Source: Methanosarcina sp. DH2 (lineage in GTDB: Archaea > Halobacteriota > Methanosarcinia > Methanosarcinales > Methanosarcinaceae). From it: DNA of 64,000 bases. Location: contig NZ_WJBI01000010.1 of assembly GCF_020804225.1 (NCBI RefSeq), positions 46,635 to 110,634 of the forward strand, given 5' to 3'. The position numbers were made by a program, and so were the translations under genes. Shown piece after piece: positions 4,033 through 27,650 of the stretch (its first letter is position 1; each line of letters begins with the position of its first letter). The notes under the pieces were generated by a model that worked only from the letters and a program-made list of their open reading frames with translations, was not told the DNA's origin and did not search any database.

Positions 4033-5520
4033 TTACTCGCCTCTGAAAGCTTTGTCAGCTCTGTCAACGACTGCCTTCATGTTCTTGAGGGTGTCTGCAT
4101 CAACCAGTTTGACTACATGGTTCTTGAGAACATCTACTACTTTGTCATGTGCGGCGGCTGCGAGGTCCTTTGATCCGGCTGCTGCCCAGTCCCCGAACAT
4201 GCGCCTGTCTATGAGCATTGGGTCAGACGGATAGTTCACAAGCATCCTGGTCTGTTTGAGTGCAAGGAAGTTGTTTCCGATGCCTACTTTCTGGATAGAC
4301 TCGACTGCAAGGGTTTCCTCATTTACAGGGACTCCCTGAAGGACTTTTTTGGTCATCTTGATGATGTCGTTGTCAATAACGAGCTGTTCCATGGAGAAAG
4401 TCATACCAAGCTCAAGCATCCCGGCGCCGTAGAGGGTGTTTGCCCCTGCGAGGGCGGGAAGGAGGCAGGTAAGGGTCTTCTCGTGTCCAGCCTGGCTGTC
4501 CGGGACCTTTGCATCAGACTAGGTGCCTGCCACGAATGCGGGGAGGCCATAGAACTGGGCGAGCTTTGCGACGGATGCGCTAATCAGGCCGAGTTCGGGA
4601 GATCCAACGGGAGCAGTACCCTTCTTCAGGTCGAAGGTGGTAGTGGAACTTCCGTACCATACTTTGGTTCCGGGTACTGTAAGCTGAGCGAGAGTGATAC
4701 CTGAGAGTACTTCGGCGTTGTGGGTAACAAGGGTCCCTGCAAGGTATACAGGAGAAGAACCACCTGACATTGCCATACTCAGGACGTTTACAGGCATTCC
4801 GAAACGTGCGCCTTTGATAATGACCTGGCATGCGTTAACGCTGAGCTCAAGAGGGCTTGTCGGGCAGACCAGCATGGAGAAGATTGGCTTTTTCCTTGCT
4901 TCTTCTTCATTGCCGCCGTAATAGGCATTTACGATGTCCCGGTAGTATTCGACATTTTCGCCGACAGGGTCAATGTGGTGGAAATGCTTTGAGGTGTTGG
5001 TGATAGCAGTGAAGGTCTCGTGGACGTCCTGGGCACCCTGACCTGCAATATCTCTTGCGGAAACAGGGAGAGAGAAGTAGTCGATATTTTCTGCCCAGTC
5101 ACAAAGCTTTGCAATGTCTGCAATGTCCTGTTCTACGGAGTCAACGGTTACGTACTTGCCGTCCTCGTACTTGCACATCTTAACGCCAGTACCGAAACAG
5201 GTCCAGTGCACTTTACCGCCGGCTTCCTGGACGGTATTGTGCTTCTTGTCGCGGCCCCAGAGGACAAATCTGGAAGGAGCGAGCTGAAGAGCTCTTCTTA
5301 CAAGATATTCAGGGATTTTTACAACATTAGTCTGTTCGTTTACTTCACAGCCATTTTCCTTGAAGATCTGCCTTGCCTCGGGATCAGAGACCTGGATACC
5401 GGGGTCCATCAGAACTTCCATTGTGGCGTAGTGAATTGCTTTGAGTTCGTCAGTGGTAAAAAGGTTTAATTCTACACCGTTAAGTGAGTTGAATCCTGCA
5501 ACTGCATTATTTTTTGCCAT
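4033..5520 (-). CDS. mttB: Trimethylamine:corrinoid methyltransferase MttB, pyrrolysine protein
   Basis: Transfers a methyl group from trimethylamine to MttC. Start ATG at 5520 ([15 protein letters not shown]). A TAG at 4519-4521 is codon 334, the known pyrrolysine position of MttB; the frame then continues with family sequence ([29 protein letters not shown]) to a TAA at 4033. Read through, the protein has 495 residues, the usual MttB length. Without readthrough the gene would look like two ORFs of 333 and about 128 codons. It is the middle gene of mtbC-mttB-mttC. Confidence 0.97.
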
Positions 5521-9424: not shown

Positions 9425-9502
9425 GGGGCCGTAGGGTAGCTTGGTCCATCCTGCAAGACTGGGGGTCTTGCGACTTGAGTTCGAATCTCAACGGCCCCAC
9501 CA
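9425..9502 (+). tRNA. tRNA-Pro(GGG), CCA encoded
   Basis: Acceptor stem GGGGCCG pairs with CGGCCCC; the anticodon stem CAAGA/TCTTG encloses loop CTGGGGG with anticodon GGG; the T arm holds GTTCGAATC. Discriminator A is followed by an encoded CCA. A TATA-like ATTTATACTAC lies near 9346. Confidence 0.95.
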
Positions 9503-23821: not shown

Positions 23822-24002
23822 ACAGTATTAACTAAAAAAAGAGAATTTTTAAAAAATCCGGAAAAAAAGGCTGTTCAAGACATTGGAAATCCTCATAAAA
23901 ACCGCGATCTGTCGATAGAATAAATAGAAAGAATGCCTATTTATTAGTCAGTAAGGAATAAAAAATGTTTCCATTAGAAATCTACCTTTATTTTCCTATA
24001 GT

Positions 24003-24014
24003 TTTATATAATAT
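24003..24014 (+). promoter_or_regulatory. Candidate TATA box for an intergenic RNA
   Basis: GTTTTATATAATATAAC at 24001-24017 matches an archaeal TATA box with no ORF start downstream until cbiD 630 bases away. The stretch 23822-24002 shows no gene. Confidence 0.4.
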
Positions 24015-24034
24015 AACTGAAATGTAGAGTAGGT

Positions 24035-24250
24035 GTCAGGCGAGTACTGACATCTAAGAGGCATCATTCCACAAGGCTATTTTTCACACACCAACCCCCC
24101 AAACCCCAACAAAGAATGGTAACCCCCCATTCAAACCCCAAGAGAAATACCCCAACTTCCAGAAAAACGAAAAAATCCCCACTCCTGGAATGATGCCACT
24201 CTTTTCTATTATTGTTCTTTTTCTATTATTGTTCTTTTTCTATTATTGTT
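24035..24250 (+). ncRNA. Candidate structured RNA with C-rich loop and T-rich end
   Basis: A 12-bp perfect inverted repeat (GGCATCATTCCA at 24060-24071; TGGAATGATGCC at 24186-24197) closes a loop of about 115 nt that is strikingly rich in CCCC and CCCCCC runs and nearly free of G. It is followed by three copies of TCTATTATTGTTCTTTT (about 24205-24255), a T-rich stretch of the kind that ends archaeal transcripts. A TATA box lies 20-30 bases before. No coding frame fits. The opposite strand has G-runs able to form a quadruplex. Could also be a mobile-element remnant. Confidence 0.35.
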
Positions 24251-24282
24251 CTGTTATTTTTACACCGCTCAATGATACTTCT

Positions 24283-24350
24283 ATCTCGATAAGTCGAGAG
24301 AACTCCTTCCTCGGAGCGTAAGCGAAAGGGAGGGTAGTTCACAGCGCACT
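24283..24350 (+). other. Hairpin-rich segment resembling an IS200/IS605 right end
   Basis: Nested short stems (TCTCGATAAGTCGAGA near 24282; AACTCCTTCC...GGGAGGGTAGTT around 24301-24340; CGGAGCGTAAGCG loop) look like the structured right end / guide-RNA 3' end of TnpB-carrying IS200/IS605 elements. No tnpA or tnpB is present. Resemblance is by eye only. The rest of 24351-24646 holds no clear gene. Confidence 0.25.
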
Positions 24351-24646
24351 GACTGTTTACTATTATCCACTGACTTTTCTAGATTGAGTAACCTTCTTTC
24401 CGGAGTCCGGCACTCTTTTTTCCCGGAGCCTTGCAGTCTGTTAGAACTCCGCAGCCTTTTTTCCAGAAACTGTTCTCTTACCATGGTTTATCCTGTTTAT
24501 CCTAATTCTTATGGCGGCTATACAGGTTCTGAGTATACAGGTCCTGAGCAAGTATCGGTGGTGTTTTGGTGAGGCTTTATTTTTCTAATTCTTTTCCGGT
24601 TTTCAGGTCAATACATTTATAATAAAAAACCTCCGAGTATTCTTCC

Positions 24647-27576: not shown

Positions 27577-27650
27577 GGGCTCGTGGTCTAGACGGTTATG
27601 ACGTCGCCTTCACACGGCGGAGGTCCTGAGTTCGAATCTCAGCGAGCCCA
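27577..27650 (+). tRNA. tRNA-Val(CAC), integration target
   Basis: Acceptor GGGCTCG pairs with CGAGCCC; the anticodon stem TCGCC/GGCGG encloses loop TTCACAC with anticodon CAC; T arm CTGAGTTCGAATCTCAG. No encoded CCA. The segment from the anticodon loop to the 3' end recurs nine times downstream (29.3, 30.2, 33.6, 34.8, 36.4, 37.5, 43.2, 47.5, 52.3 kb), marking this gene as an attachment site. Confidence 0.96.

Follow-up and report, generated by a model that had tools for sequence, protein, structure and literature searches.

A candidate free-standing small RNA with a clamped, C-rich loop beside cbiD in Methanosarcina

The locus between mutL and cbiD

The window considered here is a stretch of 64,000 nucleotides (nt) from Methanosarcina sp. 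DH2 (NCBI RefSeq assembly GCF_020804225.1, contig NZ_WJBI01000010.1, positions 46,635 to 110,634 of the forward strand). Between its mutL and cbiD genes lies a conserved unit, named RNA-A here, that is almost certainly a real structured noncoding RNA (ncRNA). Its parts are a TATA promoter, a 5' hairpin, a long-range closing stem, a large C-rich loop that contains a conserved box and an inner hairpin, and a T-rich tail (Table 1).

The putative ends of the predicted transcript were placed from the spacing to the TATA box (5') and from the T-rich stretch (3'). Column conservation rises toward the promoter, from 0.58 (bin 23960-23979) and 0.75 (23980-23999) to 0.90 (24000-24019), and the TATA promoter proposed by an earlier, sequence-only reading of this DNA is present and conserved there. 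The 12-bp inverted repeat 24060-24071/24186-24197 is perfect, and dinucleotide shuffling of 24003-24255 (253 nt) gives a perfect repeat of this length in 7 of 2000 cases, so that it is rare by chance. Its arms enclose 114 nt in the window. Inside the 11-bp stem that is conserved in relatives, the 116 nt are 38% C, 41% A and 8% G, with six runs of at least four C; over 32 homologues the loop has 25-41% C and 4-11% G.

RNA-A is single-copy in the DH2 genome, where the other matches with E <0.5 are confined to the T-rich tail. The fold of the single sequence is modest (z -2.0, with 4 of 200 shuffles equally good), and therefore conservation is the main evidence for RNA-A; the minus strand, with z 0.66, folds into nothing special. 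Three head-to-tail T-rich units of 17 bp occupy ~24202-24252, the third being imperfect. They had been read as a terminator-like triple repeat. The repeat is there and its first TTTTCTAT is largely kept, but the later repeats are not conserved; beyond 24200, three 20-base bins give 0.62, 0.41 and 0.57, within an overall range there of 0.34-0.62.

Other elements of the sequence-only reading fared better: the 12-bp closing stem is exact and kept in relatives, the C-rich and A-rich loop of about 115 nt was confirmed, and conservation and covariation back the proposal of a putative ncRNA unit with its own promoter and closing stem. The 5' hairpin, the inner hairpin and the conserved box at 24073-24097 had been absent from it.

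Table 1. Parts of the RNA-A locus, and places of RNA-B and RNA-C. Positions refer to the window unless a genome (G), contig (C) or locus (L) is named.
Feature	Position	Strand	Basis or remark
Promoter	23992..24018	+	conserved TTTCCTATA element 23992-24000, then TATA box TTTTATATAA 24002-24011; sequence and column conservation
RNA-A, predicted transcript	24030..24212 (about 24030-24210)	+	conserved unit
5' hairpin	arms 24033-24039, 24047-24053	+	97.7% of cells paired (n=32); one pair is UA, UG or CG
Closing stem, 5' arm	24060..24071	+	11 bp conserved, 12 in the window; 99.7% of cells paired
Conserved, mostly unpaired box AAGGCTATTTTTCACACACCAACCC	24073..24097	+	bins 0.92-0.93; shared in part with RNA-B
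C/A-rich rest of loop	24098..24185	+	drifts more than the box; bins 24100-24179 are 0.70-0.76
Inner hairpin	arms 24114-24119, 24127-24132	+	95.7% of cells paired
Closing stem, 3' arm	24186..24197	+	inverted repeat and structure counts
T-rich tail	24201..24252	+	first TTTTCTAT largely conserved, terminator-like; triple 17-bp repeat not conserved
Separate TATA-like element of cbiD	24615..24624	+	speaks against RNA-A as cbiD leader
RNA-B	G000:C5:8442-8598 (L080 about 1942-2098); L117, L118, L119, L121		
RNA-C	L144/L154 (G006), L155 (G028), L158 (G026), L159 (G007)		
RNA-C, further copies	L183 (G012), L162 (G000:C28), L166 (G010)		

Conservation and folding of RNA-A in relatives

How widely is RNA-A kept? 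By blastn, all but one of 30 Methanosarcina genomes have the unit, the miss being an assembly that is 81% complete (G019). A covariance model, R1, gives 32 strong matches (E ≤ 2.7e-23) among 237 genomes of the class, namely the same fraction of Methanosarcina (29/30) and three of the four genomes of a neighbouring genus, g5. The three g5 matches, left out of model building, have E values of 2.3e-25 to 2.7e-23. Apart from these 32, the 237 genomes contain no strong R1 match, although searches over more than 40 genomes were run with stricter filters and distant weak matches may escape them. A weak match in G099 (E 0.0035) is without stem and box and was rejected; a second match in G020 (E 0.007) is the sister RNA-B described below.

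All 29 oriented Methanosarcina copies have the 5' stem arm and align from promoter to tail. In 20-base bins, the best-kept parts are the TATA region (0.90), the closing stem with the box (24060-24099, 0.92-0.93) and the 3' arm (0.92). A search with the stem pattern returned 11 stretches, 10 of them from Methanosarcina; the eleventh, from Bradyrhizobium, matches on both strands at one place, as a palindrome does, and was taken as chance.

The structure was counted over 32 sequences, 29 from Methanosarcina and three from g5. In a three-helix structure, 98.2% of the 758 cells are paired, versus 29-41% in slid controls, a comparison that favours a structure derived from the tested sequences themselves. 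In 34 cells both sides have changed; this number, the covariation score and the percentage paired all lie above every one of 500 shuffles. In two g5 sequences a U-A pair of the closing stem has become C-G, and the inner-hairpin pair 24117/24129 is U-A in 16 sequences and C-G in 15. This hairpin is lost or unclear in the loci L036 and L037, and gone in the latter. Conservation of the stem in relatives, with covariation, had been named by the sequence-only reading among the checks on its proposal, and both are found in these 32 sequences. Six of the 32 homologues were checked for a common open reading frame (ORF), and they have none.

The shared box, RNA-B and the RNA-C family

Weak R1 matches at about 150 nt in many Methanosarcina were traced to a second RNA, RNA-B. 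In the DH2 genome its neighbours are an MFS transporter gene on one side and an H+-pyrophosphatase gene on the other, names that were assigned by reading translations. Its layout comprises a strong TATA box, a clamp formed by GTGAGCGGG and CCCGCTCAC, a U-tract, CACATACCATACC and a C-rich loop. Of the 30 Methanosarcina genomes, 27 contain the exact 18-nt RNA-B box, for which RNA-A is the other usual place. Stem and loop were read in 16 of those 27, where the loop is nearly identical, as it also is in three g5 genomes and one g4 genome that carry RNA-B. The unpaired loop, ~57 nt long, is nearly invariant among the copies that were read, which come from three genera. What RNA-A keeps is the clamp, the box and the C/A-rich composition, whereas in RNA-B nearly all bases are kept. 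The mean unpaired probability of the box is 0.69 in RNA-A and 0.89 in RNA-B.

Outside the genera g1, g4 and g5, nine box matches were found. Eight were read and set aside, none being in a clamp/C-rich context, and several of them look protein-coding by eye; the ninth is a second match in G165.

Individual lineages vary in their own ways. In L017 (G023) the clamp and hairpins of RNA-A stay, and the exact RNA-B box is kept in the same genome. The divergent Methanosarcina pair L036/L037 (G016, G017) keeps the clamp and most of the box but lacks any run of four C. In L035 (G003) and L034 (G012) tandem repeats of a unit resembling AAAACCCCATTTCCA make the RNA-A loop larger, which shows the loop length to be free.

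Another question is whether the box has a partner among other RNAs. Two box matches (G006, G026) and one complement (G000) sit in multicopy elements without a long ORF. The family in question, RNA-C, is intergenic and multicopy, with a promoter-like block TAATTAATTTAAAATAA, a long hairpin and as many as 26 matching pieces in a genome. One branch carries a GGTADGGTATGTGA-like sequence, the complement of the box in RNA-B; between the best copy and this box, 19 consecutive pairs are predicted (-27.8 kcal/mol, z -7.7). In eight folded copies the complementary site has an unpaired probability of 0.49-0.74, against a copy average of 0.39-0.44, and the long hairpin follows it.

The pairing test compared own-genome RNA-A and RNA-B loops with RNA-C segments, using 60 shuffles per segment. 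Of 32 loci compared, 30 gave a segment, the matches in the other two being too short; removal of two duplicates left 28 segments, which were drawn from the returned loci, not from all places found. Pairing at p ≤ 0.05 is seen for 12/28 with the box of RNA-B and 4/28 with that of RNA-A, and for 12/28 and 3/28 with the respective loops. The find is post hoc and the RNA-C copies are related, so that the scores are not independent; since more distant RNA-C members also lack the complementary site, the pairing is a lead only. That RNA-A and RNA-B form a new archaeal family with a shared box, acting as sponges or antisense regulators of RNA-C, is accordingly a long shot.

Rival readings and a proposed role

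What might such an RNA do? RNA-A would be a free-standing small RNA (sRNA) gene of the Methanosarcina lineage, with a promoter of its own at which transcription starts and a T-rich stretch, right after the closing stem, in which it ends. Following the 5' hairpin, an 11-bp clamp would hold open a large, G-poor and mostly single-stranded loop, and would present a U-tract and the CACACACCAACCC box directly after its 5' arm. RNA-B repeats this arrangement of clamp, U-tract, CACATACCATACC box and C-rich loop, and because the two RNAs are of one layout, both probably contact one partner via the box. This may be a shared RNA-binding protein, or the box may pair with other RNAs; the outcome would be a trans-acting regulatory RNA or ribonucleoprotein (RNP).

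Trans action, as opposed to a cis leader of cbiD, is very likely. The fuller reading, in which a free-standing ncRNA gene uses its clamp to present the box and works as a trans-acting sRNA or RNP, is the one to which we lean on the sequence evidence. As for the box, protein contact is the tentative first choice, though it falls a little short of an even call; RNA pairing ranks second, as a possibility, and any other role is doubtful. Protein contact is favoured because complements of the box are not in excess in the DH2 genome and there is no excess of pairing with 47 translation starts.

Several observations weigh against this picture. The number of pairs with two-sided change is reached by 54 of 500 shuffles and that of further pair types by 498 of 500. 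Of the 11 closing-stem pairs, 7 never vary, so that the support for this stem is mostly conservation, not covariation. Nor is the box constant: it is truncated in L017, whose genome (G023) is 99% complete and where the CACACCAACC part is missing, altered to TTTATCACACATCAGCCC in L034, and carries ATTTCTCAC in L036/L037. With up to three mismatches, its complement occurs at 28 places in the DH2 genome (itself included), compared with 33 for the reversed control; a guide to a unique complementary target in this genome was rejected, as the antisense of the box is not above that control. The RNA-A and RNA-B loops pair with the 47 predicted translation starts no better than shuffled RNAs, and the pairing searches made here found no target or partner of RNA-A itself. 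One of the 19 RNA-B/RNA-C pairs is a G-U. Lastly, in three of the six homologues checked, an ATG in the inner hairpin opens 25-37 codons.

The last point is also what a small mRNA, with a transcript encoding a short protein, has in its favour, together with the report that in M. mazei 21% of 314 translated unannotated small ORFs lie within earlier-detected sRNA candidates (PMC11456600). Yet the other three homologues have no ORF from this ATG, one of them is without any ORF of 15 codons, the three peptides are very unlike one another in sequence and in length, and the loop contains indels; a coding role is hardly credible. A different proposal takes the C-rich, G-poor and largely open loop at face value: its C runs would bind G-rich Shine-Dalgarno sequences by base pairing and so keep the mRNA from being translated, in the manner of M. 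mazei sRNA41 and loop 2 of sRNA154, for which masking of ribosome binding sites is reported (PMC5867862). The loop of RNA-A might suit the mode reported for sRNA41, but pairing with translation starts is not enriched. The mean is -13.0 kcal/mol for RNA-A and -13.4 for its shuffled versions (RNA-B, -12.9 versus -13.7), for starts that were script-predicted from the window and the cdh region and form a small sample and a weak test. In addition, L036/L037 keep the stem with no run of four C, and this mechanism is unlikely. Read on the minus strand, the same runs become five or six runs of at least four G in many copies, and from these the sequence-only reading had derived a possible G-quadruplex, which would make the locus a DNA-level element. 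The idea did not survive: the standard motif (G3+, loops 1-7) is present in 0 of 32 homologous loops and a relaxed one (loops 1-12) in 3, two Methanosarcina lineages keep the stem without any C4 run, and helices with two-sided changes point to RNA. We give the quadruplex next to no chance.

And what of cbiD? In 31 of 32 loci it follows RNA-A on the same strand (L020 has none within 1.5 kb downstream), and mutL lies upstream in 28 of 32, the others being L017, at a contig end, and L031, L036 and L037, without mutL within 1.2-1.5 kb upstream. This kept synteny is what favours RNA-A as a cis-acting leader or riboswitch of cbiD, and the sequence-only reading had suggested a possible regulatory role from the position of the unit before the cobalamin genes. 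However, cbiD has its own near-invariant promoter-like block, around CAATA(C/T)ATTTAT and about 30 nt before its start, in all 31 loci read; because of this block, adjacency is no evidence for regulation. The distance between RNA-A and cbiD also varies, from about 0.1 to 0.7 kb, the spacer directly after RNA-A is poorly conserved, and a T-rich stretch follows the closing stem. Over 23822-24646, Rfam gives no riboswitch even at E up to 5 and no cobalamin riboswitch core in the cbi leader. To judge from sequence, RNA-A looks like a neighbour of cbiD and not its leader. A leader or riboswitch is highly unlikely, and a cobalamin role of RNA-A is unlikely.

Does RNA-A belong to a known family? Across the whole window, Rfam 15 has no family at gathering threshold near the unit, and in 23822-24646, at E up to 5, the only matches are CrcZ (E 0.16) and CRISPR-DR14 (E 2.5), both well short of the gathering score. 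No family matches eight further loci either (one g5 RNA-A, two RNA-B and five RNA-C), and a literature search for RNA-A or its kind, over titles and abstract starts, returned nothing that named it. Lying between genes, with a predicted promoter of its own, a conserved structure and no ORF common to the six homologues checked, RNA-A would count as an archaeal intergenic small RNA (itsRNA). A Y RNA of Ro60 was considered and rejected, the TROVE protein PF05731 being absent from all 39 genomes searched, of which 24 are Methanosarcina. Bacterial sRNAs with C-rich motifs, such as IsrR and RoxS, have short unpaired motifs, whereas RNA-A is archaeal and has a single 114-nt clamp loop. Elsewhere in the window, two pyrrolysine insertion elements match Rfam, PYLIS_2 (mtbB) at 90-189 and PYLIS_3 (mttB) at 4422-4521, on the minus strand, as do two tRNA genes at 9425-9499 and 27577-27650.

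Closer parallels come from M. mazei. As described in PMC3510493, sRNA162 and sRNA171 are two homologous intergenic RNAs of 191 nt with relatives in the genus, and their stem-loops and long single-stranded stretch are reminiscent of RNA-A. They differ in having three stem-loops and a 39-nt linker, where RNA-A has one clamp around a 114-nt C-rich loop, and in place: sRNA162 is at MM2441 (ArsR)/MM2442 and sRNA171 at MM2448/MM2449 (PMC3510493). RNA-A sits between mutL and cbiD, and its identity with sRNA162 was rejected on position. Like RNA-A, sRNA154 is intergenic and highly conserved in Methanosarcina; it is reported between MM3337 and MM3338, at about 130 nt, with a potential NrpR operator, GGTA-N6-TACC, in its promoter (PMC3177094, PMC5867862). 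By eye, 23960-24025 has no such operator, and RNA-A was rejected as sRNA154 on this and on its place. RNA-A or RNA-B may be among the intergenic sRNAs listed for M. mazei in 2009, or RNA-B may be sRNA41, with odds about even; the find would then be catalogued already. In favour of this, 199 intergenic sRNAs are reported for M. mazei, with conservation in three species for 21% of the intergenic ones (PMC5867862); against it, sRNA154 and sRNA162 lie elsewhere.

Archaeal sRNAs with known targets are few, and RNA-A and RNA-B occur in nearly all searched genomes of Methanosarcina, a genus with genetic tools. The near-identity of the RNA-B loop across the copies read, from three genera, is unusual for unpaired RNA. 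If RNA-A and RNA-B did act as sponges or antisense regulators of RNA-C, this would amount to a network of RNA-RNA contacts, fixed in a genus of methanogens. The box common to these two otherwise different RNAs offers a concrete bait for an archaeal RNA-binding partner.
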